Source: Simplicispira psychrophila DSM 11588 (GTDB lineage: Bacteria; Pseudomonadota; Gammaproteobacteria; Burkholderiales; Burkholderiaceae_C). From it: DNA of 64,000 nucleotides. Under the pieces are notes generated by a model that saw only the letters and a list, made by a program, of their open reading frames with translations, was not told the DNA's origin and did no database searches. Below are positions 2,024 to 26,382 of this stretch, piece by piece (within the stretch, counting starts at the first letter, position 1; each line of letters opens with the position of its first letter). Location: positions 62,001 through 126,000 of the forward strand of contig NZ_JHYS01000005.1 of assembly GCF_000688255.1 (NCBI RefSeq), in the 5' to 3' direction. The position numbers and the translations under genes were made by a program.

Positions 2024-2032
2024 AGGTTTGAC

Positions 2033-7880: not shown

Positions 7881-7891
7881 AAGGCATCGCC

Positions 7892-8461: not shown

Positions 8462-8485
8462 CATGCGCGCGCCCGGTTGCTATCC

Positions 8486-9295: not shown

Positions 9296-9297
9296 GC

Positions 9298-10898: not shown

Positions 10899-10967
10899 GC
10901 ACCAACGGCCTGATTGTCTGACTGTCTTACAAAGTACCCCCCCCACATACCAAAATTGGAGTCGCAC

Positions 10968-11351: not shown

Positions 11352-11368
11352 GCCACTGCTGCTGGCCC

Positions 11369-11586
11369 TAGAGCGCTTTCACACTGAGCGGCCATCACCG
11401 CAGTGGCTGACCACCACAGACCACCGCATGGGGCCAAGCGCTCAAGCACAAGCCAGTTGGGTTGAGTACCACCCAACCCACAGTGCAAATTTATGCTATT
11501 TTTGGCCTCTAAGCCTTTAAATATGTGCGTTAGTAGCTATCAATTTTGATACGATGCATTCCTCAGTCAGCGCGAAAACGCTCTAT
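11369..11586. repeat. Mosaic intergenic repeat, copy 1
   Basis: The element is bounded by an inverted end motif: TAGAGCGCTTTC at the left and its near complement ending GAAAACGCTCTA at the right. Inside lie a palindrome GTTGGGTTGAGTACCACCCAAC and a module with 'aaatttatgctatttttggc' followed by 'ctttaaatatgtgcg' and TAGCTATCA. The same modules recur in different order at 39612-39770 and 63575-63739. It is non-coding. Confidence 0.75.
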
Positions 11587-11747
11587 TTACAAGGAAGGCC
11601 GGCAAGATTTTTTGTGAGATTCAGTCAAATGGGGCCCTTTTTATGGCTACCAACTGTGGCAGGCCATGGGATCAGAGTTCATAGCTGGAACCGCACGCCC
11701 AGCAAGCGTTAGAGGCTAATTTGATCCAATTTAATTGGAATCTGACC
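11587..11747. other. Gap between intergenic repeat and IS element
   Basis: There is no gene here. Near its right end is the perfect palindrome CCAATTTAATTGG (11726-11738), followed by AATCTGACC (11739-11747), the left copy of the insertion-sequence target duplication. The segment 'aattggaatctgaccc' resembles the tandem 'attaattctgacccct' units to the right of the insertion sequence, which suggests the element landed in an older repeat. Confidence 0.4.
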
Positions 11748-13128: not shown

Positions 13129-13135
13129 AATCTGA
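11860..13135 (+). pseudogene. IS4-family transposase, broken by deletion and frameshift
   Basis: Three frames together give a DDE transposase of the IS4 family. The first frame (from ATG 11860) runs to about 12173, ending in SLLSERLE. The reading then jumps to another frame at MPDTPSNQAAFPQ. In intact relatives the region just before MPDT holds the first catalytic Asp in a 'VDGT' motif, and it is missing here, so the jump is an internal deletion. A second shift lies in the C5-A4-C4 run near 12536-12550, after which reading continues PQWMSAQEY. The IS4 signature follows as Y-(2)-R-(3)-E-(6)-K: LYAMRWNIEVDFRAIK. The stop TGA (13133-13135) lies outside the inverted repeat, within the target duplication. 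Confidence 0.88.
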
Positions 13136-13170
13136 CCCCTATTAATTCTGACCCCTATTAATTCCGACCC
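13129..13170 (+). repeat. Tandem 'attaattctgacccct' repeat
   Basis: Three consecutive units follow the insertion sequence: aatctgacccct (13129-13140), attaattctgacccct (13141-13156) and attaattccgaccc (13157-13170). The first contains the right target duplication. The same word occurs once left of the element (11739-11747). It is probably a REP-like site that served as target. Confidence 0.6.
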
Positions 13171-13508
13171 GATTTGAGACGTCCACGGAAACCGGAACCT
13201 CTTCCTTCAAGTCAAAGCGCCTGAGGAGTTGCAAAGGCACAACGGTTTACACCAACCAACACGCAGAGAAAGTCATACTAGCCGCACGCGTCACGGCACA
13301 GCGCCCGCCCCTGTCTAGAGAGGAAAAACCGAGCCTAGAGACACTGTTGGCCACCGCACCTCTCCGAGGGTATTCCCCTGTCTCCAAAGCGTCAAAGAAG
13401 GGATTTCCACTCTTTACCGCTTGAAACATTGCACCTAATCTTGGCCGCTGAAAAGCCCTCAACGTCTGTGGGCTTCCATCCATTGCATGCAGCAGTAGGA
13501 GCGACCTT
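13171..13508 (+). other. Leader region of the porin gene
   Basis: There is no gene in these 338 bases. An AGTAGGAG at 13494-13501 is the porin ribosome site. The short word 'ctagag' occurs at 13314 and, as 'cctagagac', at 13334. I cannot assign promoter boxes with confidence. Confidence 0.4.
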
Positions 13509-14771
13509 ATGAAGAAAATGCGCATCTTGTCAGCAGCCATGTTCGGCTGCGTTTCATCGTTGGCCATGGCGCAAAGCACGATTGGCACCAGCAGTGTCAC
13601 GATATACGGACTCATCGACGTCGGTATCAACCACGTTACCGGCGCGCCCGGCGGTTCCGTGACCAGCATCACCAGCGGAAACATGGAAGGCTCACGCCTC
13701 GGCTTCAAAGGCAATGAAGACCTGGGCGGCGGATACCGTGCCATCTTCACACTGGAATCGCGCCTCGAAGCCGATACCGGCTCGCTCAGCAACCGCCCCC
13801 TTTCCGGTGGTCGGCTGCCTGACCGGCTCAGCACCGCGACGTCCCTCGGTCTGCCGGCCGCACTGCAGCCCGCCGTTTCCGCCGTCGCCGCCCAGATCGG
13901 CTCGTCCGTCGGCGTGAACCTGGGCAACGGCATGTTCGACCGGCAGGCCTTCGTCGGCATGGTCACGCCGTTTGGTGCCTTCACGGCGGGCCGGCAGTAC
14001 ACGCCGGGCTATCTGGCCTCCGCCAGCTTCGACGTGATGAAGACCGAATCGAGCCTTGCGCTGGGGCAACTGGTCGCCATTCCGGCCTCGTTCGACATCC
14101 GCGTGAGCAACTCGCTCCAGTACGGCTTGAAGTTGAACGGCCTGACGGCCACCGCCATGTACGCAGCCGGTGAAATCGCCGGTCGGGCAAACGCTGGACG
14201 CCTGCTGGGCGTCATGGCCATGTACCAGGGCAACGGCTATTCCTTCGGTGGCGGCTACAACACGCGCAACAACGAACTGGGTGAAAAGTCGCTGACGAAC
14301 GTCATCCTAGGCGCGACGGTGGACGTCGGTCCGGGCACGCTGACTGGCCAATTCACCACTATCAAGGATGACAACCCCAGCGGCCTGTCCAGCATCAGCG
14401 CCGCCCTGTCGGCAAACCCGGCGACGGCACCTGTCGCCGGTCTGGTGCAGAACGCCTTCATCCAGGGCTTCCGGCAAGACGCCCGCCTGTTCCAGGTCGG
14501 CTACCGCATCACCAGCGGCGTGCACACTGTGTCCGTGGCTTACAACAGCATGAACGACAAACGTCCGTTCAATGCAGACCGCGTTTCGTATGGCGCGGCT
14601 TACACGTATGCCCTGTCCAAACGAACCGACCTGAATGCAGTTTTGACACATCTGAACAACAAGAACACGTCGCAAGACATGCTGGGTGGCAACGGCTTCT
14701 TGGGCGGCGTAGCTGCAAAACCGGGCCAGGATGTGAACAGCTTGGCACTGTCGATTCGCCACCGCTTCTGA
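13509..14771 (+). CDS. Outer-membrane porin, Gram-negative general porin family
   Basis: This 420-residue trimeric-type porin forms a passive channel for small solutes. A classical signal peptide (Lys-rich start, hydrophobic core, cleavage after AMA at about residue 21) is followed by SSVTIYGLIDVGI, the first strand seen in Burkholderiales porins. The segment SRLGFKGNEDLGGGYRAIFT is highly typical. The protein ends with Phe (SIRHRF), the outer-membrane assembly signal. The start is supported by AGTAGGAG seven bases upstream. The gene stands alone, with an insertion sequence upstream and a terminator hairpin at 14861-14890. Substrate specificity cannot be told from sequence. Confidence 0.93.
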   Translation: MKKMRILSAAMFGCVSSLAMAQSTIGTSSVTIYGLIDVGINHVTGAPGGSVTSITSGNMEGSRLGFKGNEDLGGGYRAIFTLESRLEADTGSLSNRPLSGGRLPDRLSTATSLGLPAALQPAVSAVAAQIGSSVGVNLGNGMFDRQAFVGMVTPFGAFTAGRQYTPGYLASASFDVMKTESSLALGQLVAIPASFDIRVSNSLQYGLKLNGLTATAMYAAGEIAGRANAGRLLGVMAMYQGNGYSFGGGYNTRNNELGEKSLTNVILGATVDVGPGTLTGQFTTIKDDNPSGLSSISAALSANPATAPVAGLVQNAFIQGFRQDARLFQVGYRITSGVHTVSVAYNSMNDKRPFNADRVSYGAAYTYALSKRTDLNAVLTHLNNKNTSQDMLGGNGFLGGVAAKPGQDVNSLALSIRHRF

Positions 14772-14860
14772 GACACGAGCCCGGCTTGCGAGCATGACCA
14801 AAATCCCCCGCAAGGGGTAATACCAGTCAGTCAAGCACCCGACGACCTCGCTCTCCTGTC

Positions 14861-14893
14861 AAAGGCAACCTGTGTCAACACGTTGCCTTTTAC
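14861..14893. terminator. Hairpin terminator after the porin gene
   Basis: A 9-bp perfect stem, AAAGGCAAC (14861-14869) with GTTGCCTTT (14882-14890), has a 12-nt loop and is followed by 'tacttttg'. It is 90 bp past the porin stop. Confidence 0.65.
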
Positions 14894-15031
14894 TTTTGAT
14901 AAGCCTCTCGCAATGTGCTTTGCGCGAGACCCTGCCCTCAACCTCACCGGCAAGTTCTCCATCCGCAGGCAAGCTGCCTCTGTGGCACGTCGTGCAGCAA
15001 CTAAACGCCTTACTGGCGTCTTTGGTCAAAT

Positions 15032-15063: not shown

Positions 15064-15080
15064 TCTGGCGGAGGCTGTGA
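15064..15080 (-). repeat. attL core (tRNA-Ser 3'-end duplicate)
   Basis: tctggcggaggctgtga matches 26293-26309 exactly over 17 bp; both flanks differ at the next base. It reproduces the last 15 bases of the tRNA-Ser gene including CCA plus two bases beyond, without the rest of the tRNA. Confidence 0.85.
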
Positions 15081-15143
15081 CCGCCTACTATCTAGCATTC
15101 ATGCGGGTTTCAAGCCATTTACTAGATTTATCCCACCATCATT

Positions 15144-15161
15144 CCCACCTAAAAAAAGTGG
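15144..15161. promoter_or_regulatory. Candidate integrase arm site, left
   Basis: cccacctaaaaaaagtgg matches 26166-26183 (cccacctaaaaaaggtgg) with one difference over 18 bp. The two copies lie 64 bp and 110 bp inside the two att cores, as arm-type integrase sites would. Confidence 0.5.
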
Positions 15162-15195
15162 CTGCAAAATAAAGTGCTTTAGCTAGTCTGGCTAA

Positions 15196-15510
15196 TCAGC
15201 CGCGCACCAGCAATTGCAGCTCTTGGCGGGCGCTTTTGACGTGGATCACGCTGTCGATGCCGTATACCTTGCCATCGTGTCGCACCCGGTCAGCCGACGT
15301 AATGCCGGGGCGGTAGCGCAGTCGCACCCGTGCCGACACTTCGCTTTGCGCTTGCAATGCGGCCATGAATTCGCGCCCCACCAGCGGCTCAAAAGCGCAC
15401 CAGACAGTGCAGACAGGCACCCAGGCACCGGGGATGGGGTCGCCGTACTTGTCCACGCCTTCCTCCATGCGCTCAATCGTCACCCGTCGGTCTAGCTGGC
15501 CCGACTTCAC
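15196..15510 (-). CDS. Phage head-tail adaptor (head closure) protein
   Basis: This 104-residue protein belongs to the HK97 gp7/SPP1 gp16-type head-tail joining family. Recognition rests on the N-terminal pattern GQLDRRVTIER, the short acidic stretch, the segment VWCAFEPLVGREFMAA and the later YRPGITSADRVRHDGKVYGI, a familiar layout in this family. It would close the packaged head and offer the surface to which a tail attaches. It is the last gene before attL. Its stop is about 115 bp inside attL, and its start overlaps the connector gene by 4 bp. Confidence 0.85.
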   Translation of the reverse strand: MKSGQLDRRVTIERMEEGVDKYGDPIPGAWVPVCTVWCAFEPLVGREFMAALQAQSEVSARVRLRYRPGITSADRVRHDGKVYGIDSVIHVKSARQELQLLVRG

Positions 15511-15794
15511 TGGTACACCCGGTACGGTGCCAACAGCCGCTCAAACGCACGGTTATCGGTCAGGGGCCGGTCTGTTTGGCTCTCGCGCCACAGGTACAGG
15601 TCACCCACCAGCAGCAGCGCGGCAGACTTAATCGGCGCGGGCGCGGTGTTGTCCAACGGCACAGGGCTGTTGATGTGGTCGCCTACGGCAAGGGTCGCCG
15701 CAGCGATCAGGCCCAGCAGCAGCGCATCTTCGGCGTCGTCGTCAACCCGAAGGTGAAGTTTGGTTTCTTGCAGTGTCAGCATTTGAATGTTCAA
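15507..15794 (-). CDS. Phage head-tail connector protein (gp6-like)
   Basis: This 95-residue mostly helical protein has the start LTLQETKLHLRVDDDAEDAL and then LIAAATLAVGDHI, the pattern of HK97 gp6/SPP1 gp15-type connectors that form a ring under the portal. It overlaps the terL stop by 4 bp (15791-15794) and the adaptor gene by 4 bp. The pair of connectors at the end of a head module, with no tail gene after them, is characteristic of capsid-forming satellites. Confidence 0.85.
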   Translation of the reverse strand: MNIQMLTLQETKLHLRVDDDAEDALLLGLIAAATLAVGDHINSPVPLDNTAPAPIKSAALLLVGDLYLWRESQTDRPLTDNRAFERLLAPYRVYQ

Positions 15795-17293
15795 ACAAAA
15801 GTAAATGAATCAAAAGAGGTGCCCACGGCAGCCTCAGCGCGGGCGGCAGCACCCATAGCCATGGCAAGGGCCTGCATCCCGTCAATGCGGCCCGTGCTGC
15901 GGCTCTTGTCCAGCTTGCGCGCGCCGGTCGGGTCTTTGGTCACAGTGGCGTTAGCCGCGCACATGGTCAACACGGGGTGTCCACCGTGGGCAAGCCGGCC
16001 ATTCAGCAATTCGGCCTCCAGCGCATCCAGGGCGCCGCCCATGTCTTTCCAGCCTTGGCCCCAAGGGATCAGCGGCAGGTCAACATCAATGCGGTCGAAC
16101 TCGCGTTTCAGCTCGGCCATCTTCCAGCGGTCGAACGCCACCGCGTGCACGTCTAGCCCGCTCAGAATCTCGGCAATGTCGTGGGCCACGTAGGCGTAAT
16201 CCACCGTGGCCCCCGGCGTGGTGCGTAGGTGGCCTTGCCGGTGCCACACGTCGTAGGGCGCACGGTCACGGCGGGCGCGGTCTAGCAAGCCTTGTTCAGG
16301 CGTCCAAAAGTGGGGTTGCACGTGCCAAACGCCATCGATCTGGCCAATCACGACAAGCGCGGTCAGGTCAGTCCGCATAGACAGATCAAGACCGCACCAG
16401 ACGGGCGCATCGTCCAGCGGCTGAACCCTTGCACTGCAAGCCTTCCACACCCCCGGCGAGACATACGGGCTATCGGTGCTGACGCGGTTGTTCAGCAGCA
16501 GGTTGCGCGCGCTGTTTTCCATGCTCGGCATCCGCTGCGCTTGCGTCATCTGCTCGCGTAGGTCGTCCAGGCTGCGGAACAGACCCAAAGCGGGATTGGC
16601 CGCTTTCCACGCTGATTCGTCCATCAAGTCGCAGCCCTCGGGCGCGGCGTACAGGTGGCACACAATGCGCGGGTCTTGGCTGGTCTTTGCGTCGTCGATC
16701 CACACGCTCAATAGGTCGGCGTCGCTGGCAGATTGGGTGCTTATAGCTATCAATAAAGGAGCATCATGGGCACCTTGACTTGTCGTAATGGCATCGATGA
16801 AGTCGCTTTGCGGGCCTCGCACCTGGCCGATTTCGTCAAGGATGGCCAGCACCGGGGACAGGCCGTGTGCCGTCTTGCCGTCAGCAGCAAGGGCGCGGTA
16901 TTCGGTATTGAGGGGCAGGCCCAGCAGGCGCTTGCCGGATGGCACGATCCGCACCACGCTGGACAGCTTCGGGGACAACTGCACCATCTTGCTGGCCAAG
17001 TTGAAAACGAGTGCGGCTTGGTCGCGGCTCATGGCACCAGACACGATCTGGCTGTTTTGCTTGGCCTCGGGGCCGACCAGGTGGGCCAGCAGCAGGCCGG
17101 CGATCAATCCGCTCTTGCCGTTCTTGCGGCTCACGCTCAGGATGGCGCGGCGCGTGCCGGCTGGGTTGTCGTACACGTCACGGATGAACTGCTTTTGAAA
17201 CTCTGCCAGCTCCATGGGCTTGCCGACGTGGGCGCCATCTGGGGTCAGGCAGTGCGTTTCAATGAAGCGGATGACGCGGGCGGCGCGGGTCAC
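15791..17293 (-). CDS. Terminase large subunit (HK97-type TerL)
   Basis: This 500-residue packaging motor and nuclease pumps DNA into the procapsid and cuts it. The N-terminal ATPase has a Walker A region SVSRKNGKSGLIAGLLLAHL and a Walker B LAILDEIG with catalytic Glu. The C-terminal nuclease begins at GLDLSMRTDLTALVV with its first metal-binding Asp; a second Asp is in VAFDRWKMAEL and a late Asp in STGRIDGMQALAMA. The length is normal for the family and all motor and nuclease motifs look intact. The start is a GTG overlapping the terS stop as GTGA. Possession of its own TerL separates this island from PICIs that only redirect a helper's terminase. Confidence 0.95.
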   Translation of the reverse strand: MTRAARVIRFIETHCLTPDGAHVGKPMELAEFQKQFIRDVYDNPAGTRRAILSVSRKNGKSGLIAGLLLAHLVGPEAKQNSQIVSGAMSRDQAALVFNLASKMVQLSPKLSSVVRIVPSGKRLLGLPLNTEYRALAADGKTAHGLSPVLAILDEIGQVRGPQSDFIDAITTSQGAHDAPLLIAISTQSASDADLLSVWIDDAKTSQDPRIVCHLYAAPEGCDLMDESAWKAANPALGLFRSLDDLREQMTQAQRMPSMENSARNLLLNNRVSTDSPYVSPGVWKACSARVQPLDDAPVWCGLDLSMRTDLTALVVIGQIDGVWHVQPHFWTPEQGLLDRARRDRAPYDVWHRQGHLRTTPGATVDYAYVAHDIAEILSGLDVHAVAFDRWKMAELKREFDRIDVDLPLIPWGQGWKDMGGALDALEAELLNGRLAHGGHPVLTMCAANATVTKDPTGARKLDKSRSTGRIDGMQALAMAMGAAARAEAAVGTSFDSFTFV

Positions 17294-17751
17294 TTCACCG
17301 CCCGCAATGTTGGGATCAGGTCGTCGCCGTCGTCTTGGCGTGCCTGGCGCTCCAATGCCGAACCCTTGGCGATGTTTTCGGACTGGCCTACGGTGGCCAG
17401 CGTGTGAACCATCAGCAGGCGGGCAAGCGTCACGGCACGGCGCGTCAGGTTTTCCACGATGGCGGCAAGCGGGTGGGCCTTGTCACCCAGCAGATAACCC
17501 TCAGCGTCTAGCGTGGCTTGCAGCGCTTCAATGTCTGCCTGACACCGCGCCAAGTTTCCAGCCGTCACCAGGTCGGAGCCCGTCCAGGTATCGCGGGGAC
17601 GGGCCGTCACGATGGCATCCCAAAACGGGAGATCACCCGGGCGCAAGTTGACGTGCGCAGGTGGCGGCAGTGGCCCCAGCGCGGCCGCTTGGCTGGCAGC
17701 GATGGCAGCGGCAGCACTGTCGGAGCGGGCACGGCGGGGGGTGATTTTCAC
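17290..17751 (-). CDS. Terminase small subunit (P27 family)
   Basis: This 153-residue protein precedes terL in the usual order and overlaps it by 4 bp. It has an Ala-rich N-terminus, LRPGDLPFWDAIVTARPRDTW, then AGNLARCQADIEALQATL and IVENLTRRAVTLARLL, which is the helical pattern of P27-type small terminases. It should recognise the island's packaging site and recruit TerL. The site itself is not identified. Because small-subunit specificity decides which DNA is packaged, this gene would favour island DNA over helper DNA. Confidence 0.85.
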   Translation of the reverse strand: MKITPRRARSDSAAAAIAASQAAALGPLPPPAHVNLRPGDLPFWDAIVTARPRDTWTGSDLVTAGNLARCQADIEALQATLDAEGYLLGDKAHPLAAIVENLTRRAVTLARLLMVHTLATVGQSENIAKGSALERQARQDDGDDLIPTLRAVK

Positions 17752-18203
17752 AGGGCGTTTTTCCAGTTAGCGGTTGCGTTGTGGGAAGGGTCGGTCTGGT
17801 GCGCAGGGTCGCTGTCGATTTCTGGCGCGTCAATGGCCCGTGCAGCCACCAGATCAGCCCGTATCGCGTCATACCAGCCGTGGCAGGGGTCTAGCGGCAT
17901 ACCGTCTGCGTCGCAGCCGTAGCGCACCGTCTTGCCTTGCTCCTTTGCCGTTTTGCGCGAGTGGCATTCATGGCACAGCGGTTGCAGCGACTCGGGGCGG
18001 TTGTCGTCCGCACCGTTCATGTGATCCACGTCGGTGGCAATGACAGTCAACCCACGGGCGGTGCAGTGGCGACACAGCGGTTCACCGGCCAGCACACTGG
18101 CGCGCAGCTTTTGCCATGCGTAGCCGTTGAGCTTGAGCGTGCGCCGTGGGTCAGCATCCCGCCCGGTGCGCTTGGTCGCGGACTTGAGTAGTGCGGCTGT
18201 CAT
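17748..18203 (-). CDS. HNH endonuclease of the packaging module
   Basis: In this 151-residue protein the HNH core is clear: CRHC, then DVDHMNG with the general-base His, an Asn/Pro segment and PLCHECHSRKT. The two Cys pairs should bind structural zinc. HNH proteins next to TerS/TerL in HK97-type phages are needed for specific cleavage at cos ends, so this points to a cos-type packaging scheme. It overlaps both terS and the portal gene by 4 bp. Confidence 0.9.
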   Translation of the reverse strand: MTAALLKSATKRTGRDADPRRTLKLNGYAWQKLRASVLAGEPLCRHCTARGLTVIATDVDHMNGADDNRPESLQPLCHECHSRKTAKEQGKTVRYGCDADGMPLDPCHGWYDAIRADLVAARAIDAPEIDSDPAHQTDPSHNATANWKNAL

Positions 18204-19402
18204 TGTTTGCTCGGGTACGGTTGGGCGGCAGGCACGGCGGTGGTGGTGCTCACCATGTCGTCCAGGCCGGGGATAGCGTCGAGGTTTTCAAAGGCGCGGG
18301 CCTCAGACGGCAGCATCCAGCCAGACGCAATGCCGCTCGAATAGAACGCGGCGCGGGTGGTGGTGTCGCCGCGAAGCAGTCCTTCAAGCGAAAACTCGCT
18401 GTACAGCGTGCGGGCGGCGGCGGGTGTCAGCAGTTGGCGGTTAATCGCGCCTTCAATCGCGCTCAGGTGGCGGCCCAGCGTGTGAACGGCGAACCAGCGA
18501 TTCATGCTCTCACTGACGCTGTAGTTGGCATTGGAGAGGTCCCCGATCATGATGGGCGGCACCTTGAAAATGCGCGCCACTTCCTGCACCGTGTGTATGC
18601 GTGAGGCGATGTAGTCGCTGTCTGCCAGCGACATTGATATGGGCGTGTACTGGGTGCCCTCTTCGAGAATAGGGACCTTGCCGGCGTTCGATCCACCTGC
18701 GTGCTGGGTCTGCCAGCTTGCCGCGATGGCAGTGCGTTGCTCAGGGCGCAGCTTGCCGGCGAAGTTCAAGATGCCGCTTGCGCGGGTGCCGTTGTCCCAC
18801 GTGCTTTGGCCATGCTGTGCCTCAGCTTGGGCCAGCTCAATCACAGCGCGCGCGGCTTGGATGGGACTGACGCCGATCAGTGGGTCGGTGCCAGCACGGT
18901 GGCGCAAGTGGAACACCTCGGCGGGCAGCAGGCGCTCACGCCGGCCATCCCGGTCGGTGTAGTCGTAGCCCCCGATGGCCTCACCCCGGCGCAGCACCTG
19001 CACCCGGTCGGTCACCAGTGGCCACAGCGAGGCAACTTGGCCGGCGTTGTCGCGGGTGACGCGGGCGTAGGCGTTGCCAGTCAGCAGCATGGATGAAACC
19101 ATCCACTCCCAGAACTCGGTGGCGCACTGTTGATCGTTGGGCGTGCGGTGCAGTACCGATGCCAGCGGGTGCCCAGCGGCGATGGTGCGGTCGCCGTTGT
19201 CGCCGCGCTGGTACAGGCGCAAGGGCAGCGATCCGATGGACTCAGCGATCAAAGCCACAGCGGCATACACGGCGGCGATGGATTGGGCGGACTCAGGCGT
19301 GACGTGGCCAGCAGCGGTAAGGCTAGGCCAGCCACCGACGCCGATGGGGGCACTGCGGCGCTCTAGGCCGATGGCAGACAAGGCACGGGTGATGATGCTC
19401 AT
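18200..19402 (-). CDS. Phage portal protein (HK97 family)
   Basis: This 400-residue protein is expected to form the dodecameric DNA entry ring at one capsid vertex. Family traits visible are AAVYAAVALIAESIGSLPLRLY near the N-terminus, the NDQQCATEFWEWMVSSMLLTGNAY segment (split here across residues of the clip), LIGVSPIQAARAVIEL, SMSLADSDYIASR, and the C-terminal region with LSNANYSVSESMNRWF followed by an Arg-rich exit. The order capsid-protease-portal-HNH-TerS-TerL runs toward attL. The start at 19402 overlaps the protease stop by 4 bp. Confidence 0.93.
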   Translation of the reverse strand: MSIITRALSAIGLERRSAPIGVGGWPSLTAAGHVTPESAQSIAAVYAAVALIAESIGSLPLRLYQRGDNGDRTIAAGHPLASVLHRTPNDQQCATEFWEWMVSSMLLTGNAYARVTRDNAGQVASLWPLVTDRVQVLRRGEAIGGYDYTDRDGRRERLLPAEVFHLRHRAGTDPLIGVSPIQAARAVIELAQAEAQHGQSTWDNGTRASGILNFAGKLRPEQRTAIAASWQTQHAGGSNAGKVPILEEGTQYTPISMSLADSDYIASRIHTVQEVARIFKVPPIMIGDLSNANYSVSESMNRWFAVHTLGRHLSAIEGAINRQLLTPAAARTLYSEFSLEGLLRGDTTTRAAFYSSGIASGWMLPSEARAFENLDAIPGLDDMVSTTTAVPAAQPYPSKQ

Positions 19403-19959
19403 ATGCAGGTATCCAGCCAGCGCAGCGCGTTAGGGCGGTGGCTGAAAATGAAGCTGTTGAGGTCGCGGGCGTCCTCGATGGCCTTGCGACTGCGCAGCGC
19501 GACTTCGGTCGATTGGTAGGCGGGCCACGCTTGCACCACGCTGATTTCATGCAGCTCTACGCTGCGCAGCTCGCGTGTGTCGCCGTTCCACGATTCTTCG
19601 GTCGCAATGAATCCGAAGCTCATCCCGCCCAAGTCGCCGCGCTCGGCCAGTGCGATCACGTCGCGTGCGGCAGCGGTGTCGGGGAGGTGCAGCTCAAACT
19701 TCAAGCCCTTGCTGTCTTCGGACAGCCTCAAAGAACCGCTGCGGGTGCGGCCCAGCAACACATCAGCGCGGTGGTCGAGTAGTGCCAGCACGTCCCGGCC
19801 ACTGGCAAGCGTCTTGGCAAAGGCACCGGGGGCGATGCGCTCAGTAAAGCCACCGATGGCCGTGGGCACGCCGTAGGTCGCTGCATATCCGCTCAAGGTG
19901 CGGCCACTGGCAGTTACGCCAGCAGCGGCACCCCGGCGCTCAATGTCCGGGGCGCTCAT
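19399..19959 (-). CDS. Prohead protease (HK97 family serine protease)
   Basis: This 186-residue maturation protease cleaves scaffold segments from the major capsid protein during head assembly. The catalytic His lies in LALLDHRADVLLGRT and the catalytic Ser in LGGMSFGFIA; the third acidic residue follows downstream. The GYAATYGVP and ERIAPGAF motifs near the N-terminus are standard. Its gene begins 3 bp after the capsid gene ends. A working protease implies that the island's capsid undergoes HK97-type maturation. Confidence 0.93.
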   Translation of the reverse strand: MSAPDIERRGAAAGVTASGRTLSGYAATYGVPTAIGGFTERIAPGAFAKTLASGRDVLALLDHRADVLLGRTRSGSLRLSEDSKGLKFELHLPDTAAARDVIALAERGDLGGMSFGFIATEESWNGDTRELRSVELHEISVVQAWPAYQSTEVALRSRKAIEDARDLNSFIFSHRPNALRWLDTCI

Positions 19960-19962
19960 GGC

Positions 19963-21177
19963 TTAGGCGATGGCCAAATCGTCGATCACGACAAACGCAT
20001 CTTCACGGCGCGGCACCATGTCCAACGTCGTGAGAATACGCACCTGCACCGCGCCGCGTGAGAACGGGCCTTCCGCGTACAAATTGGTTACCACGTCCAA
20101 ACTGCCCCACGTGCCCAAGAACATCTCGGAAAAGTCGCCCAAAATCATGCGGCCTTTGGCAGGCGTGCCGGCCTTTTTAGCCAGTTGGTTTGTGACTGCC
20201 ACCGGCACGCCGGCCAATTGGCCACCGTCCAACAGGTAGCCGGGGAGGCCAGCTTCGCGCAGGGTTTTGCGCAGCACGGTCGCCACTTCGGGATGGGTCA
20301 GCCATGCGTTAGGCGTGATGTTTTTGAGGGCCAAACCTTGCAGCACTGCCAGCACCGTGGCCCAGCTCAGGGTGGCCAGCGTGCCGGTGCCGGTGGCAGC
20401 AGTCAGCAAGCCCTTGGGCTCTTTCACGCCGTCGCCGTGGATCATTGCCTTGTCCACTGCCAGCGACACGACGTTGATGAAGTCGTCGCGCACCAGTTGT
20501 TCAATCGCTGGATTGGACTGTTGCAGGAGCTGGCGGCTCAGTTCGGTAATCGCGCCGACGTGCTTGGGGCGCAAGTTGATGCTGTTGAACGTCAGGCCGC
20601 TATCGGTCAGGGCGTCACCCTCAGCAAGCCATTGGGCGGAGCTAGTGGTGGCTTGTCGGGGAATGGTCACGTCGCCGCGTAAGCCGGGCAACACGCGGGC
20701 ACCCAGCGACTGCACCACCATGCTGTTGCGCAGCAAGCCGACAAACTGGTCGGGGCGGAAGTCGGGCGGCACTACGCCAGCGGCGGTGGTGGTTGTCTGC
20801 GCAGCGCGGCTTTCAAACAACGACGTGGGGATCAGCACGCCCTTGGCTTGGACACCTTGGCGCTTTTGTTCCTGGTTGAACTCAGCCAGTGCGCCGGTCA
20901 AGCTGCGGTTTTCCGAGTGGGCGGCGATGGCGTCAACCAGACTGATATGGCCTTCCAGCTCGGCGCGGCCCTTGTCAGCCACGGCGCCTAAAGAACGTCG
21001 CTCGGCATCTTCGACAAACACGGCGCGGGCCTCTTGGCTTTCCAGCGACACGATCTCAGCTTTCAGCTTGTCAAAGGCGGCAGTGGCTTCGGGCGTCAGG
21101 TTAGGCGTGCTGGCCAGCAGGGCGCGGGCTTCGGTGACTTTGGCGGCGCGGGCTTCGCGGATGGCGTGCAGTTGCAT
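19963..21177 (-). CDS. Major capsid protein (HK97 fold, with N-terminal delta domain)
   Basis: I use the ATG at 21177 (404 residues); an upstream in-frame start at 21225 would add 16 residues without a better ribosome site. The first 110 residues are helical and charged, matching the scaffolding delta domain removed by the prohead protease. The mature part starts near GVLIPTSLFE. HK97-type segments include GVVPPDFRPDQFVGLLRNSMVVQSLGARV in shortened form, FNSINLRPKHVGAITELSRQ, ITPNAWLTHPEVATVLRK and PAKGRMILGDFSEMF. It heads the capsid operon. Satellite capsids are often smaller than phage capsids; this cannot be judged from sequence. Confidence 0.93.
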   Translation of the reverse strand: MQLHAIREARAAKVTEARALLASTPNLTPEATAAFDKLKAEIVSLESQEARAVFVEDAERRSLGAVADKGRAELEGHISLVDAIAAHSENRSLTGALAEFNQEQKRQGVQAKGVLIPTSLFESRAAQTTTTAAGVVPPDFRPDQFVGLLRNSMVVQSLGARVLPGLRGDVTIPRQATTSSAQWLAEGDALTDSGLTFNSINLRPKHVGAITELSRQLLQQSNPAIEQLVRDDFINVVSLAVDKAMIHGDGVKEPKGLLTAATGTGTLATLSWATVLAVLQGLALKNITPNAWLTHPEVATVLRKTLREAGLPGYLLDGGQLAGVPVAVTNQLAKKAGTPAKGRMILGDFSEMFLGTWGSLDVVTNLYAEGPFSRGAVQVRILTTLDMVPRREDAFVVIDDLAIA

Positions 21178-21423
21178 GTGGGCAATTCTTTCTTGGTGTT
21201 GCCCAGATACGGGCGGTTGAAACACTGTTAGAAAACACAGTTATTGAAAGAATTATCCACTATCAGGCCATTTATTGAAAGAATCTTTCACAGAAACCCG
21301 CCTTTTCATTGATTTATTGCCGTCCTTTGTGCTATGGGCGGTGGTTTCTTGCGCGAAGTGGGCGGCGGGCGTAAAAAAACCCGCTCGGGGCGGGCTGGTG
21401 TGGTCAACTTGACCGGGCGTCTA
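21178..21423 (-). other. Gap between small-protein gene and capsid gene
   Basis: This stretch of about 250 bases holds the GAAAGAAT sites listed separately. The remainder, 21291-21423, is GC-rich with the word 'aacccgctcggggcgggctggt', a possible weak hairpin (CCCGCtcgGGGCGGG). I see no gene. The capsid operon promoter most likely lies here. Confidence 0.4.
21241..21290 (-). promoter_or_regulatory. Direct and inverted GAAAGAAT sites upstream of the capsid operon
   Basis: TTATTGAAAGAAT occurs at 21241-21253 and again at 21272-21284, 31 bp apart, about three helical turns. The second copy is part of a perfect palindrome TGAAAG-AAT-CTTTCA (21276-21290). The block lies 64-113 bp upstream of the capsid start and downstream of the small-protein genes, which is where a late-operon control site is expected. 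Confidence 0.5.
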
Positions 21424-21624
21424 TTAACTGGCCTCGGCTTCGGTCTGGTGGTGTTCGCAGCGGAACTTTGGATAAGGCTGTTTCCGGATGACCATGGGGC
21501 GGTCGTATTCGTCAAGGTGGTGGATGACGATGCTCACCAGGTTGAAGCATGTCGGCTCGTTCTCAGCGGGCGCGGCATTGAAGGCTGCACAGTTGGCGCA
21601 GGTGCGTTTGGCGATGGATTTCAT
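21424..21624 (-). CDS. Small Cys-rich protein of the island, unknown function
   Basis: This 66-residue protein has Cys at positions 9 and 12 (CANC), Cys26 and a late CEHH, a spacing that could bind zinc. The rest is charged without membrane segments. It starts in a 4-bp overlap with the upstream gene (21621-21624), which supports that it is translated. I do not recognise a family. As the last gene before the capsid operon it could be a late-gene activator or accessory replication factor; that is speculation. Confidence 0.6.
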   Translation of the reverse strand: MKSIAKRTCANCAAFNAAPAENEPTCFNLVSIVIHHLDEYDRPMVIRKQPYPKFRCEHHQTEAEAS

Positions 21625-21953
21625 GGTCGGTCTTTCTGGTTGATTTCGTTGAAGTAGTCGAGGAGGTCTTGGCGCAGGTGCAGCGGCGTGGCCAGCACGT
21701 CCAGGCGCATTTGCTCGCGTGCGACTTCGCCGTCGTTGAAGTGGTCGCAGCGGCGCATAGCGGCGGCCAGCAGGCGGTGGGTGGTGCGGCTCGAATCCAG
21801 CAGCAGTTGAATCAGGGCGGCTTTGTGCTGGCGAATGTCGGCGCGCATGGCGTCAGTAAGGCGGTCAGCGCGCCCTACGACAAGCCCGTCGCCGTCAACG
21901 CTCAGGACAACACCGGCGCGGTGCAAGTCTTTGTAGAGGTCGAAGGCGATCAT
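21621..21953 (-). CDS. Small protein with TubC_N-like docking domain
   Basis: In this 110-residue protein the first half (LYKDLHRAGVVLSVDGDGLV, then RLTDAMRADIRQHKAALIQLL) matches the TubC N-terminal docking fold, a small helix-hairpin module best known from polyketide assembly lines but also found in mobile-element proteins that accompany primase/helicase genes. The second half is helical and charged. The start follows directly on the ATPase stop (21954). It probably docks onto a replication partner; no function is proven. Confidence 0.6.
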   Translation of the reverse strand: MIAFDLYKDLHRAGVVLSVDGDGLVVGRADRLTDAMRADIRQHKAALIQLLLDSSRTTHRLLAAAMRRCDHFNDGEVAREQMRLDVLATPLHLRQDLLDYFNEINQKDRP

Positions 21954-23333
21954 TTAGAAGCGCTCCTCCTCAATCACGTAGGCCCGTCCATGCGCGTCAA
22001 CTTGCTCAACTTGTCCAACTTGTCCAAGATTTGAAGGTTGGACAACATGGACAAGTTGCTTGGACAAGTTCGATTTTTCGGGCAACTTGTCCATCATGTT
22101 GTCCAACGCCTGAAAGTTGGACAAGTTGGACAACATGGATTTTTCAACAGGCGGCAGTGGCAGAGATTCCGGCTTAAACCAGTACCACGATCCATCAAGC
22201 TTTCGCTTCTTGATGCCAAGGCAATCGGAGGCGCGGCGCACAGTGCGCCATGCGATGCCAGCGCCTTTTGCTTCGGCCTCTACGTGCTTGGATGGGGCGG
22301 AGCCATCCTTCAGCAATTCCAGTAAGAATTCTTCGGTCTCATCTTTGGCTGAATTGTCTGCACTGTCCTGCGGCGTGTCGTCTGGTTCGGTCAGCAGCTC
22401 GCGCGCGGTGCCCTCCACCGCCTTGCCCCATGCAATGCGCGAAGCCTGAATTCCAGGCAGTGGCTCGCACTGTTCCAAGTGGTACTGGAAGCCGCCATCG
22501 TCGGGGCCGATATTGGACTTGCTTCGCGCCAAAATGCGGGTGTCTTGGTTGTCGTCGTCCTGCACTTTGGCTGCCACCAGCACCACGCGCGCCACGGCGG
22601 CAAAGGCCACGCTGCCGATAACGCGCTGCGCTGGGTCAGTGCCTTGTCCGCCCTTGGAAAAGTGGGTAATGCCCAGCACGGCGCAGTCGCACGCGGCGGC
22701 CAAGTCCACCAGCGGCTGCAATGCGCGGCGCACTTCGGTGTTTTTGTGACTGTCGCCAGTAACAGCGCTCACCACCGGGTCGATCACCAGCAGCTTGATA
22801 CCGCCGATTTGTTCAATCGCGGCCAGCAACTGCCCCAAGTCGCGGGATGGGTCAAACGGCACCACCTCACCGTCGCGGCGCGCGCCATCAATAAAGAAGC
22901 AGCGATCCTTGTCGGCACCAGCGGCCAGCAGGCGGGGTAGCAGCGTGTCTGCTGGGTCATCCTCTCCACTCCAAATTAGGATGTTGCCCGTGTCGCTACG
23001 CGATCCATCTGGCCAGCGCCCGCCGATAGTCAGGGTTGCAGCGATGGCCAGCGCGATAGTGGTCTTGCCTTGGCCGGGGGCACCCGCCAATAGGTGAAAT
23101 TTGCCCAGTGCAAGCCAGTGCGTCCACAGCCAGCGCACGGGCTGCGGGGTCAGGTCAGCGCCGCATTTCAGGATGACGCTATCGCGCATCAGGCGCGGTG
23201 CAGCAACAGGCGCAACGTCATCAAAGCCGTCGTCCAAAGACGCAAGCGGAGGGAATGCGGGGTAACTGCCCTCAGCGTCCAAGCGTGCGGCCAGTTCGTT
23301 GATGTGGTCTTGTTTTTGTTTATTGGTTTTCAC
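21954..23333 (-). CDS. RepA-like AAA family ATPase (replicative helicase of the island)
   Basis: This 459-residue protein has a RecA-like ATPase core: Walker A in HLLAGAPGQGKTTIALAIAA, ILIWSGEDDPADTLLPRLLAAG, Walker B LLVIDPVVSAV, and GITHFSKGG as a sensor-type motif. This matches hexameric RepA/DnaB-like helicases of plasmids and satellites (AAA_25 type). A winged-helix-like region lies at about residues 345-400. The C-terminal 60 residues are unusual: they encode SNLSNF/SNLSKQ/SNLGQVGQVEQV, a consequence of the iteron cluster in the DNA (separate entry). It follows the CHC2 primase gene with a 4-bp overlap. Together they should start replication of the excised island. Confidence 0.85.
   Translation of the reverse strand: MKTNKQKQDHINELAARLDAEGSYPAFPPLASLDDGFDDVAPVAAPRLMRDSVILKCGADLTPQPVRWLWTHWLALGKFHLLAGAPGQGKTTIALAIAATLTIGGRWPDGSRSDTGNILIWSGEDDPADTLLPRLLAAGADKDRCFFIDGARRDGEVVPFDPSRDLGQLLAAIEQIGGIKLLVIDPVVSAVTGDSHKNTEVRRALQPLVDLAAACDCAVLGITHFSKGGQGTDPAQRVIGSVAFAAVARVVLVAAKVQDDDNQDTRILARSKSNIGPDDGGFQYHLEQCEPLPGIQASRIAWGKAVEGTARELLTEPDDTPQDSADNSAKDETEEFLLELLKDGSAPSKHVEAEAKGAGIAWRTVRRASDCLGIKKRKLDGSWYWFKPESLPLPPVEKSMLSNLSNFQALDNMMDKLPEKSNLSKQLVHVVQPSNLGQVGQVEQVDAHGRAYVIEEERF
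22011..22133. repeat. Iteron cluster: nine TTGTCCA/TGGACAA copies, candidate replication origin
   Basis: The 7-mer TTGTCCA or its complement occurs nine times in 123 bp: TTGTCCA at 22011, 22020, 22087 and 22099; TGGACAA at 22039, 22048, 22061, 22118 and 22127. Three pairs have a 9-bp period. The copies form two blocks, each with direct repeats facing an inverted set. The cluster lies within the 3' end of the ATPase gene. Iterons of this kind bind initiator proteins in plasmids and in satellite P4. Confidence 0.7.
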
Positions 23334-23788
23334 TTGAACATCTCCACCACGCGAGTGATGCGGCCAGCGCTTTGCAGTACGCGCTTGCGTTCGTCATCGG
23401 AAAGAACCACGCCAAAAGCCACGTTGCCGGCGGCGACTGCCACCAGCATTGCTTCGCGCTCCAAAAGCTGCAAAGCGTCACGCGGCGACATTGCCGTCGG
23501 CTTGTGTTGGACGGCGGGGCGCCCATCGTCAACCCACGCGCCCAAGGCTTTGGCCGCGTCGATAAATTCCAAGCCATGCGCGGCTTGGTGGTAGGCCAGC
23601 ACGTCGCCGCCTTTTTCGTCGCAGGCCATGCACATGAAACCCCCGGTTTCAGTGTTGACGCGCATGGAATCGCTGCCGCCGTGGAATACGCACTTGGTGG
23701 TGCGCCACTTGCCGCGACTGGTGAAGATCAAGCCTTCGGATTCGTAGTAGCTGACGGGGTCAGGCAGTTGGTTGCGGTCGAAGCTCAT
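23330..23788 (-). CDS. CHC2 zinc-finger primase-like protein
   Basis: This 152-residue protein has a DnaG-type zinc ribbon: a Cys-x2-His in TKCVFHGGSDSMRV and Cys-x2-Cys in GFMCMACDEKGGDVLAYHQ, then a helix with FIDAAKALGAW. This matches the CHC2 domain that reads template DNA in bacterial primases. The catalytic TOPRIM domain is absent, so on its own it should not make primers. It may load or guide host primase or the neighbouring ATPase. It overlaps the ATPase gene by 4 bp. A comparable division of replication functions occurs in other satellites and plasmids. Confidence 0.85.
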   Translation of the reverse strand: MSFDRNQLPDPVSYYESEGLIFTSRGKWRTTKCVFHGGSDSMRVNTETGGFMCMACDEKGGDVLAYHQAAHGLEFIDAAKALGAWVDDGRPAVQHKPTAMSPRDALQLLEREAMLVAVAAGNVAFGVVLSDDERKRVLQSAGRITRVVEMFK

Positions 23789-24207
23789 TACTGGCCCTTT
23801 TCCATGCGCCCGGCCTGCATTGCGGCTTGCTCCATGTGACGGTGGGCGGCACTGCCAGCTTGGACGCGCTGCGCCATCGGGAAAATGCGGCCACTGGCAG
23901 CGGCATCAACTACCTCAGCACAGCAGGCAATGGCGGACAAAATCCCAATGGCCACGCTAGGGCCGAATTTGCATGGCGCCTCCAAGCCAATTTCAGAATC
24001 AAGCTCGCGCTGGCCCAACATGGCGGTCAAGGTGTGAATGCCTTGCACGGCACTGCTCAGGCGGGCCACTGACTGCGGGCACAGATAGACAGCGCTGTCG
24101 CCGGCCAGTGCCTCGAAGCTGTCAGCAAAGGGGAAGGTGGGGAAGGTCTCGGGCGCGGCTTCAGGTACACCGGCGGCTGGCGTTGCGCCATTTGTGAATG
24201 CTTGCAT
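23788..24207 (-). CDS. Hypothetical protein of the island replication operon
   Basis: In this 139-residue protein the N-terminal 35 residues are Ala/Pro/Thr-rich. The middle has helical stretches (SVARLSSAVQGIHTLTAML, VAIGILSAIACCAEVVDAA), and the C-terminus is charged. No transmembrane segment or known motif is evident. The stop overlaps the CHC2 start by one base and the gene begins 9 bp after alpA ends, so it is co-transcribed with both. The function is unknown. Confidence 0.6.
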   Translation of the reverse strand: MQAFTNGATPAAGVPEAAPETFPTFPFADSFEALAGDSAVYLCPQSVARLSSAVQGIHTLTAMLGQRELDSEIGLEAPCKFGPSVAIGILSAIACCAEVVDAAASGRIFPMAQRVQAGSAAHRHMEQAAMQAGRMEKGQ

Positions 24208-24216
24208 GGTGTCCCC

Positions 24217-24426
24217 TTACTTGCCGATGGTGGCAATGAGGGAGTCGATATCGCTTGCGCGCCAGACGGTCACTCGCGGGGACAGCTTGATCCCTGCCGG
24301 GTACTTGCCAGCCTTCACGCCGGCCCACCAGGTAGAACGGCCAATAGGGAGGATTTCGAGGATGCTCGGCTCGCGCAGGAAGCGGTCGCCTTGGATAGAG
24401 CGGTTGCGCTCAGTGGTTGCAGTCAT
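24217..24426 (-). CDS. alpA: AlpA-like helix-turn-helix regulator
   Basis: This 69-residue protein of the AlpA family (MerR-like winged helix) is common in P4-like satellites and PICIs, where it activates excision and other island genes. The signature is FLREPSILEILPIGRSTWWAGVKAGKYPAGIKLS (quoted in part: LREPSILEILPIGRSTW and AGVKAGKYPAGIKL), then RVTVWRASDIDSLIA. I prefer the ATG at 24426, giving the usual length; an in-frame ATG at 24462 would add 12 residues. No Stl-type repressor gene is present, so AlpA and perhaps the RNA at 24538 may carry control. Confidence 0.88.
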   Translation of the reverse strand: MTATTERNRSIQGDRFLREPSILEILPIGRSTWWAGVKAGKYPAGIKLSPRVTVWRASDIDSLIATIGK

Positions 24427-24503
24427 GTTGTGTCTTTCAAACGATTTATGAAAGTCACCCATGCCCTAGCGCACGGCAAAGCTTACTGTTTACAAGTACA
24501 GCA

Positions 24504-24531
24504 TTGCTTTATCGGAACGCCGTATTAGAAT
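24504..24531 (+). promoter_or_regulatory. Candidate sigma-70 promoter for the small RNA
   Basis: TTGCTT (24504-24509) and TAGAAT (24526-24531) are separated by 16 bp and point rightward, away from alpA. A transcript would start near 24538 and end at the terminator at 24588-24625. Confidence 0.4.
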
Positions 24532-24537
24532 CTGAGC

Positions 24538-24625
24538 CGTCCCTCTCACAAGACATCTCAAACCCTTTTTGGGCTTGGGTAACAAGGCCCCCTATGCGTT
24601 GACGCGCTTAGGGGGTTTTGCTTTT
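24538..24625 (+). ncRNA. Candidate C4/CI-type antisense RNA
   Basis: This transcript of about 85 nt would have the layout of the C4 antisense RNA family of phages P1/P7 and satellite P4: a pyrimidine-rich start CCCTCTCACAAGACATCTC, a small hairpin CAAACCC-ttttt-GGGCTTG with one mismatch, then GGGTAACAAGG and a terminator hairpin. C4 RNAs regulate phage and satellite lysogeny by pairing with a leader mRNA. The position between alpA and integrase fits. I place it in this family from memory of the motif, not from a model search. Confidence 0.5.
24588..24625 (+). terminator. Intrinsic terminator of the small RNA
   Basis: CCCCCTA (24588-24594) pairs with TAGGGGG (24609-24615), extended inward by GCG/CGC across a mismatch, and is followed by TTTTGCTTTTT. 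It reads rightward on the + strand, opposite to the island's genes. Confidence 0.7.
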
Positions 24626-24785
24626 TGGGCGGACGAATAACGTCCAATTGCAAAAAGCAGGGCGAATGCTAGCAGAGTTTTTAACGAGCTATTTGCCTCC
24701 TGAAAAATAAAGTTGGCATGTGCATCACATTTTCAACATCTTGTTTAATTCCATTTACATCAACCACTTAGCCTAGCCTAATAAC

Positions 24786-24814
24786 GGTTGATTGTTGTGC
24801 TCTATTAATCAACC
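24786..24814. repeat. Inverted repeat between alpA and the integrase gene
   Basis: GGTTGATT (24786-24793) and AATCAACC (24807-24814) are perfect 8-bp arms around a 13-nt spacer, in AT-rich DNA. This may be a protein-binding site. Confidence 0.4.
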
Positions 24815-24860
24815 AATATGGCTTGTCACAGCTTTATGAACATTGTTCAGTTATTCCCAT

Positions 24861-24880
24861 TGATGCCCCTTGATGCCCCT
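24861..24880. repeat. Tandem decamer tgatgcccct x2
   Basis: Two perfect copies are followed by a third partial 'tgattc', 47 bp past the end of the integrase gene. A regulatory or integrase-binding role is possible but unproven. Confidence 0.4.
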
Positions 24881-24926
24881 TGATTCAAGATTGCACTCAA
24901 ATTGAATACAAATCTCATTAGCCGCA

Positions 24927-26151
24927 TTAGCCATTAGCCACACCCTCGCAGTAGTTCGCCCACGCTTGCATCAAGGCGCGCCGCCTCTCCAGTGCGTCGC
25001 CGCGCCGATAGGCTGCCTCCACCTTTGACTCCAACGCGTGCGCCAGCGCTTGCTCGGTTAGGTCACGGGCGAAGTCGGTATGTTCAAACGCCCAGTCACG
25101 AAAAGAACTGCGGAACCCGTGAGGCACGCACACATCACCCTCAGCGTCCTTAAACGCCATGCGCCGGGTGATAGCCGTCAGGCTCATGTCTGATAGTTGA
25201 CCGCCACGGGGCGCAGGAAACAGCAGTTCGGTGCCCTCGATACGCGGCAGGCTCTCCAGCAGTTGAATGGCGGGTTGGCTTAACGGGACGCGGTGCTCCT
25301 TGCCCGCCTTCATGCGCTCGCCTGGCACAGTCCAGACAGCCGCCTCCAGATCAATCTCGGCCCATGTGGCACCACGCACCTCTGCGCTGCGTGCGGCTGT
25401 CAGGATGACGAACTCCAGGGCGCGGGGTGATATGCCTTCACGCTCGCGCAGTGCAGCCAGGAATGCCGGCATGTTTGCTACTGGCACGGCGGGATGGTGG
25501 CGCACCTTGGCAATCTTGCCTGGCGCGGGGAGTAGCTGGTCTAGGTGGCCTTGCCAGCGCGCTGGGTTGTCGCCTTGTCGGTAGCCTGCTGCGCTTGCCC
25601 AGGCCAGCACCTGCTCTATGCGGCCTCGAACGCGGGTGGCGGTGGCTGTCTTGGTTTTCCAGATTGGGCGCAGCACCTCCAGGACGTGGGACTGCCTGAC
25701 TTCATGCACCAGGGTGCTGCCAAAGGTGGGATAGACGTAGGTCTCGAACGTCGAGGGCCACTGTGCCCGATGCTTGGCATTGCGCCAGGAATCAGAATGG
25801 GCCTCGATGTAGGCAATTGCGCATTGCTTGAATGTTTTTTGTAGCACTGCCTGCGCTTCACGCTCACGGCGGGACTGTTTGCGCTGCGCTACTGGGTCAA
25901 CACCATGGCGGCTCTCTGTACGGGCCCGCCCGTGCCTTTTGTCGTGCTGTAGCCAGTGTGACTAGAGGGAAGCCTCCCAGGCCCATTTCACGGCGCTTGC
26001 CGTCAACATTGACGCGCACCAACCAGGAACGAGCGCCAGACACAGACACGCACAGGTACAGGCCAACAGCACCGCCTACAGCGTGCATGCCCGGCTCAGT
26101 CAGGTTAGAGACTGCCAGCGCAGACAGCTCTTTTGCGATACGTGCCACCAA
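24927..26151 (-). pseudogene. int: P4-type tyrosine integrase, frameshifted by a 4-bp duplication
   Basis: Two pieces make one integrase of about 406 residues. The N-terminal piece (25897-26151) is an arm-binding domain: GGAVGLYLCVSVSGARSWLV then GKRREMGLGGFPLVTLATAR. The C-terminal piece (24927-25847) has the core-binding and catalytic domains: catalytic Arg in TAARSAEVRGATW, HGFRSSFRDWA with His and Arg, LAHALE, and Tyr in AAYRRGD. Between them CCCGCCCG at 25925-25932 is a tandem duplication of CCCG; removing one unit restores the frame through RARTESRHGVDPVAQRKQ, a family-typical linker. The start is GTG or TTG near 26148-26151 after GGGGGA. Either the gene is mutated or the base count is wrong. 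It lies beside the tRNA-Ser, as expected. Confidence 0.88.
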
Positions 26152-26165
26152 ATCCCCCCATTGAT

Positions 26166-26183
26166 CCCACCTAAAAAAGGTGG
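26166..26183. promoter_or_regulatory. Candidate integrase arm site, right
   Basis: cccacctaaaaaaggtgg is the near copy of 15144-15161 and also a 6-bp hairpin. Between it and the tRNA are further direct repeats, 'gggactaacttggactaac' and 'gggactaattgggactaac' (26211-26282), which could be additional arm sites. Confidence 0.5.
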
Positions 26184-26209
26184 ATTGGGTGGGATTGTAT
26201 GGGACTAAC

Positions 26210-26283
26210 TTGGACTAACGCTAGACCCATTCCCTCTGTAGCTATGGAAATCAACCACTTACGGGACTAATTGGGACTAACTT
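26210..26283. repeat. Direct repeats 'ggactaac/ggactaat' near attR
   Basis: The word GGACTAA occurs four times in two pairs: near 26202-26220 and again near 26263-26282. All lie between the integrase gene and the att core, as integrase-binding sites often do. Confidence 0.5.
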
Positions 26284-26292
26284 TTATGGTCA

Positions 26293-26309
26293 TCTGGCGG
26301 AGGCTGTGA
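26293..26309 (-). repeat. attR core within tRNA-Ser 3' end
   Basis: This 17-bp sequence is identical to 15064-15080 and covers the CCA end and acceptor stem of the tRNA. Because the tRNA is complete on this side, integration kept the gene functional. Confidence 0.85.
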
Positions 26310-26382
26310 GATTCGAACTCACGGACAGTTTCCCGTCGGCAGTTTTCAAGACTGCTGGTTTAAACCACTCACCCAAACCTCC
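26295..26382 (-). tRNA. tRNA-Ser (anticodon TGA)
   Basis: This is an 88-nt gene with CCA encoded. The acceptor stem GGAGGTT pairs with AGCCTCC, followed by discriminator G. The anticodon arm is GCAGT-CTTGAAA-ACTGC, which gives anticodon TGA at plus positions 26346-26348. The long variable arm has GACGGGAAACTGTC and the T arm is GTGAG-TTCGAAT-CTCAC. The T-loop and D-loop (GGTTTAAACC) are normal for serine tRNA. It is the integration site of the island. Confidence 0.96.

Follow-up and report, generated by a model that had tools for sequence, protein, structure and literature searches.

A probable capsid-forming phage satellite in a tRNA-Ser gene of Simplicispira psychrophila and its mostly Burkholderiales clade of integrated and candidate plasmid forms

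The DNA analysed here, called the window, is a stretch of 64,000 nucleotides from Simplicispira psychrophila DSM 11588 (contig NZ_JHYS01000005.1, positions 62,001 to 126,000). It contains a chromosomal island of about 11.2 kb at 15064-26309, inserted at a tRNA-Ser gene, and all 16 open reading frames (ORFs) assigned in the island lie on the minus strand. By its gene content, the island is very probably a capsid-forming phage satellite of the type known as capsid-forming phage-inducible chromosomal islands (cf-PICIs). It is a new member of a large and already known kind of element, and this copy may be grounded. The greater novelty lies in the results for the clade to which it belongs, which concern candidate plasmid forms and an orphan RNA.

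Genes were called by Pfam and PHROGs family scans of 17 ORFs (the 16 assigned and one alternative), with plus-strand ORFs outside the scan. The assigned ORFs cover 91% of the island, and in eight cases two adjacent ORFs share 4 nt. From the tRNA inward, the island begins with a tyrosine integrase in two ORFs of the ORF list, one for the arm-binding domain (25897-26151) and one for the central and catalytic domains (24927-25847). These are followed by the AlpA regulator/excisionase (24217-24462), a 139-aa protein without a family match (23788-24207), a CHC2 zinc-ribbon protein corresponding to the N-terminal domain of DnaG (23330-23788), a replicative helicase-like AAA_25 ATPase of the RepA type (21954-23333), a 110-aa protein with a TubC_N domain that is conserved in some relatives (21621-21953), and a 66-aa protein without a family match (21424-21624). 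The remaining genes encode a major capsid protein (MCP) of the HK97 fold family (PF05065; 19963-21225), a prohead protease (Peptidase_S78; 19399-19959), a portal protein (Pfam and PHROGs; 18200-19402), an HNH endonuclease (phrog_2323; 17748-18203), the small and large terminase subunits TerS (phrog_5601; 17290-17751) and TerL (15791-17293), the gp6-like head-tail adaptor Ad1 (Phage_connect_1, phrog_40; 15507-15794) and the head closure protein Hc1 (Phage_HCP, phrog_25, TIGR01563; 15196-15510). The scans confirm the integrase, AlpA and replication genes and the full HK97-type head, packaging and connector set of the original prediction, with three corrections: the integrase is not one open frame, the "primase-like" gene matches the zinc ribbon of DnaG but holds the ribbon only, and the "helicase", a helicase-like ATPase, is of the AAA_25 (RepA-like) family. 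The tail and lysis genes said to be missing are indeed not matched by the 17 ORFs scanned (plus-strand ORFs not among them).

The predicted coordinates and the tRNA-Ser insertion were also borne out. A repeat search found a 17-bp direct repeat, TCTGGCGGAGGCTGTGA, at 15064-15080 and 26293-26309, the exact edges of the island; the window has two exact copies of it (~7e-6 expected for a given 17-mer). The attL-side copy reproduces the 3' end of the tRNA, and the attR-side copy spans that end, lying mostly within tRNA-Ser(TGA) (26295-26382, minus strand), which is left intact. Imperfect 32-nt repeats of family D11, 84% identical, are found just inside both ends (15130-15161 and 26152-26183) and are probably integrase arm sites; shorter repeats come after the second of these, at 26191-26211 and 26263-26283, the repeats at this end being of families D11 and D8. 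A malic enzyme search of 26 genomes of the genus showed that tRNA-Ser(TGA) directly adjoins maeB in the two closest relatives (loci L035 and L056) and lies ~1.4 kb from it in a third and more distant genome (L047). At L056 (genome G260, 61% complete), miaB is followed by a terminator hairpin and then by the tRNA, with no island between them: this is the empty site that was to be sought in related strains. In the window this hairpin lies right at attL, so that the edge of the island matches an empty site. L035 has other genes at the tRNA-Ser(TGA) site and no island. From miaB to the tRNA terminator, the window further carries a segment of ~14.4 kb (627-15028) that is not at the corresponding place in G260; it holds chemotaxis-type genes (identified by eye), transposase fragments and a porin.

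Published definitions of cf-PICIs list genes for capsid, protease, portal, connector, TerS, TerL, HNH, AlpA and integrase, and no tails (PMC10690885; PMC10448857). By that description the island has the capsid, protease, portal, connector, TerS, TerL, HNH and AlpA genes, no tail gene among the ORFs scanned and a specific attachment site, with its integrase in two ORFs of different frames. It differs from described cf-PICIs, among which EcCIEDL933 has been named (PMC11389934), in its Burkholderiales-type clade, in its separate CHC2 and AAA_25 genes where the description has Pri-Rep, and in its interrupted integrase. The int-AlpA-replication layout and the lack of Stl are shared with the Gram-negative PICIs EcCICFT073 and PmCI172; the criteria stated for these include absence of phage structural genes, yet PmCI172 reportedly encodes an MCP homologue (PMC6092414). 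The original prediction drew attention to the lack of an Stl/Rpr-type repressor. No such family was matched among the 16 assigned ORFs, all on the minus strand and without a divergent pair (plus-strand ORFs were outside the scan), but this is ordinary rather than special: Gram-negative PICIs are described as using AlpA as an activator, Stl being a Gram-positive feature (PMC6092414; PMC11773190), and its absence is therefore expected.

From the protein families and the literature, we infer a cycle of induction, excision, packaging and tail piracy. A helper phage would raise AlpA, the integrase would excise the island at the tRNA-Ser core, and the AAA_25/CHC2 module would replicate it. MCP, protease and portal would assemble an HK97-type head, to be filled with island DNA by TerS, TerL and HNH and closed by Ad1 and Hc1. 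The helper, a putative siphophage in the original prediction, would provide lysis and whatever neck and tail proteins the island lacks.

The same gene set could in principle be what is left of a longer HK97-type prophage after loss of its tail and lysis genes. Its head and packaging proteins are homologous to those of HK97-type siphophages: in a comparison against a database of only eight HK97 proteins, 7 of 8 island proteins match their counterparts at E<1e-4, MCP being marginal (E 0.004). TerL is 62% identical to HK97 gp2, the portal 33%, TerS 32% (gp1), the protease 30% and HNH 27% (gp74), and Ad1 and Hc1 are detectable. The integrase frame, moreover, is broken, as in decaying prophages. 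However, the HK97 order is TerS-TerL-portal-protease-MCP-gp6-gp7-gp10 followed by the tail, whereas the order in the island's clade is MCP-protease-portal-HNH-TerL; the island has no tail, and its MCP is barely alignable to HK97 gp5. Matches to the MCP occur in 84 of 50,697 phage records, all at <60% identity (<=31% among the 30 matches listed), compared with 43-79% at the 32 loci that a profile scan of GTDB genomes detected in named genomes. Other genera have this tail-less set with tRNA-end repeats too, and a compact plan that recurs across genera argues against prophage decay. We regard a prophage remnant as very improbable. A TerL query aimed at a named E. coli cf-PICI did not find one: it gave two matches, of which the one looked at proved to be a tailed prophage of HK97 type.

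Tail or lysis genes elsewhere in the same unit were named in the original prediction as a result that would count against a satellite. At 86 loci, 381 ORFs outside the element yielded ten clusters common to at least three loci. Eight have Pfam matches (short-chain dehydrogenase with DUF6788, exonuclease, Orn/Lys/Arg decarboxylase, ABC ATPase, chemoreceptor, Fic, HemN and Hsp70), none of them tail or lysis, and two have no match; only 32 of the 86 loci, window and repeats included, extend at least 3 kb past the last core gene. A 35.6-kb IMG/VR record (L155/L177; G273:C1:1-20000) carries P2-like tail genes, recognized by eye, on the far side of the satellite integrase. By the same visual judgement, they belong to a neighbouring prophage outside the satellite.

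The island belongs to a coherent clade, a large and mostly Burkholderiales group of such islands. The MCP has a match of any kind in 32 of 250 family genomes, host included; close copies (48-72% identical) occupy 9 places in 7 other family genomes, and the remainder match at <=40% over parts. By name, about half of the 32 GTDB loci are in Comamonadaceae, the others being in Oxalobacteraceae, Alcaligenaceae, Nitrosomonadaceae and, for two of them, Lysobacteraceae. IMG/VR holds 134 relatives, of which the best 80 were kept. Genes were mapped on 122 sequences, repeats included: L022-L030 largely repeat other loci, and L096, a 13,291-bp IMG/VR record identical to the window, probably comes from the same assembly and so adds no independent support. 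These are left out of the layout counts, in which a genome may still be counted both under its name and as an IMG/VR copy. In 85 of 89 loci the genes run MCP-protease-portal-HNH-TerL; two exceptions (L073 and L105) are circularly permuted contigs, and two (L160 and L162) have a long alternative portal ORF starting upstream. The integrase-to-connector span is 9.4-12.6 kb, with a median of 10.7 (45 loci with both, some cut at the integrase). Ad1/Hc1 is undetectable in some relatives (L022, L068, L100), and no near DNA match of the island was found in the phage and plasmid collections. L022, L023 and L029 are in tRNA-Ser genes, where 14-bp copies of the tRNA end enclose 10.3-11.2 kb; L026 and L027 yielded no such copy. 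At L025, a tRNA-Gly island, the end copy encloses ~13 kb. This island has a HipA-like kinase gene, apparently cargo, beyond Hc1 (L025:1924-3174).

In a tree of MCPs (71 clade sequences and 12 others, a few phages among them), the window has its place in the midst of clade members, and the support is starred. The tree does not show a single origin for the clade, which appears in 24% of bootstrap trees, and the outgroup branches are long. Overall, the results place capsid-forming satellites, nearly all with one head-gene order, in Comamonadaceae and related families. The gene content supports the predicted cf-PICI-like element in a Comamonadaceae-like genome, but the extension of range that was attached to it is modest, because such islands recur in Comamonadaceae; two papers already report a wide distribution of cf-PICIs or their abundance across diverse taxa (PMC10690885; PMC11773190). 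Capsids of cf-PICIs and of gene transfer agents fall on one branch by structure (PMC12846349), which would suit a gene transfer agent or another domesticated capsid locus. The integrase ORFs, attachment repeats, AlpA and replication genes speak against such a locus, as does a patchy distribution: a TerL search found a close TerL (80%) in 1 of 25 other genomes of the genus and matches of 25-33% in two more. We regard this explanation, too, as very improbable.

Several observations weigh against reading the island as a cf-PICI. No catalytic primase domain was found in the island ORFs, the zinc ribbon and AAA_25 being in separate genes, and the integrase frame is interrupted, with the arm domain and the central and catalytic domains in different frames. 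The host genome has no HK97-gp10 neck gene (PF04883). Its only PF04860 match is the island's own portal, PF13550 has no match there (nor in L155 and seven other records or genomes searched), and PF10145 finds one tape-measure gene; of 14 control genomes, between 2 and 7 gave a match to each of these four profiles. The sole tail genes found in the host are those of a prophage at a contig edge (L182; G000:C14:1-20000), which we take to be Mu-like. It encodes a transposase, a head protein and, as tail components, the tape measure and a major tail protein; no sheath gene was seen in the 20 kb inspected. Lastly, an RNA that follows terL in many relatives, Rfam family RF03044, is absent from the window, where a scan of 22 kb with filters off scored no higher than 10.5 bits (E 0.09), and none was found in the host genome.

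The island could thus be a cf-PICI that is now immobile, kept by chance or through interference with phages. This is compatible with the best explanation of the island, and we consider it a serious possibility that falls just short of probable. With its integrase frame interrupted, this copy may be immobile: it would be either grounded or dependent for excision on an integrase supplied in trans, provided that the break is not an assembly error, as it may be in a draft of 38 contigs. Relatives carry single integrase ORFs of up to ~1.4 kb, so that intact copies exist. The missing RF03044 RNA also fits a grounded island, although some relatives likewise lack it. All head and packaging genes are open and have 4-nt overlaps, which means that any decay is at most recent.

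Five relatives (L073, L105, L170 and the fragments L142 and L165) combine the same head and packaging cassette with ParA-like genes. Their gene maps show no integrase match, L142 and L165 being incomplete. Exact terminal overlaps of 55 bp (L073), 55 bp (L105) and 127 bp (L170) make three of them look circular. The ParA of L073, L142 (L142:244-927) and L170 passes the NF041546 cut-off; that of L105 is below it, and for that of L165 (L165:46-504) the only match is one by blastp to the ParA of L105. The putative replication proteins have no family match, size and position being the only basis for Rep in L073, L105 and L170. A serine invertase-like gene is present in L170 as well. In ParA and the lack of a detected integrase these five, and not the window, are like cf-PISP, the capsid-forming satellite-plasmid of Vibrio, which is episomal with ParA/Rep and no integrase. 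The window island differs in being chromosomal and having integrase ORFs; the relatives that suit the cf-PISP description are L073, L105 and L170. A 2026 paper gives cf-PISP from Vibrio only and reports none outside that genus (PMC13230959). The five relatives are candidate satellite-plasmids outside Vibrio.

Among 60 labelled MCPs (55 with integrase, 5 with ParA), the supported branches force five changes, and the ParA forms stand in five separate places; the test does not give the direction of change, and shuffles are uninformative with five rows. L073 stands beside an integrated Ramlibacter island on the MCP tree. Tentatively, and with slightly less than even confidence, we propose a mostly Burkholderiales radiation in which a chromosomal module (integrase, AlpA) and a plasmid module (ParA, putative Rep) have repeatedly replaced each other beside one head-and-packaging cassette, and in which the RF03044 RNA at the terL 3' end of many members acts in packaging or in a terminase-to-connector expression switch. 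Under this switching proposal, and held just as tentatively, the window island would have lost the RNA. If the proposal is correct, satellite-plasmids would be a recurrent life style and not a peculiarity of Vibrio. Close pairs of integrated and plasmid-like forms with similar capsids would allow the change of satellite life style to be studied.

The RNA was recognized as a conserved block directly after TerL. Of 99 mapped loci that have ORFs for both MCP and TerL, repeated and truncated ones counted, 62 show it by a profile built from 32 sequences. A covariance model finds it in 53 of 100 relatives' loci scanned (for example L116:9959-10055, L129:9894-9990 and L093:15451-15547), 34 of the 53 having been in the model. 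In 4 of 4 loci scanned, the block is Rfam RF03044, Proteo-phage-1. A literature search found no paper on Proteo-phage-1 by that name. In 35 sequences, three helices, one of them a pseudoknot, pair in 97.8% of cells and show 65 two-sided changes, against a shuffled mean of 10.8 and 7-11 in slid versions; the helices were picked by eye on the same alignment. The 250 family genomes have ten places above the cut-off, all in satellite-like islands, eight of the clade and two others, and one weaker match (G242) among apparent host genes.

A cos site was considered as an alternative identity for the block. In its favour, the block and the TerS type tend to occur together in 55 loci that have connectors: 41 have both and 7 neither, the RNA stands alone in 3, and the TerS type alone in 4. 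This count does not control for kinship. It omits L022-L030 and L096, some repeats remain, and the window is among the four TerS-only loci. Against a cos site, the covarying pseudoknot indicates an RNA, and the block is also present in two islands (L215 and L216) in which no TerL was matched. Two patterns of the block were not found in the ends of HK97. The analysis ties an orphan structured RNA family mainly to satellites, and its function thereby becomes testable.

A restriction of RF03044 to satellites was rejected. The exact loop pattern occurs in 22 IMG/VR contigs: 17 belong to the clade (some repeats), two match clade HMMs distantly, and three, one of them 31 kb long, have no clade proteins in the stretch examined. 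The pattern was found in neither the phage nor the E. coli collections. A partial match lies in a stretch without listed genes on pBEN, an alphaproteobacterial megaplasmid of Paracoccus versutus (L238:12001-12055). A different satellite-like island (L215:2489-15117) has the RNA together with an integrase, AlpA, DUF3987, an IS30-like ORF (by eye) and capsid protein E. A second Rfam family, RF02996 (int-alpA RNA), was not detected in the window island. It is present in relatives (L152:1583-1648 and L121:1707-1773), elsewhere in the host genome (G000:C10:113460-113538) and in 58 of the 250 family genomes.

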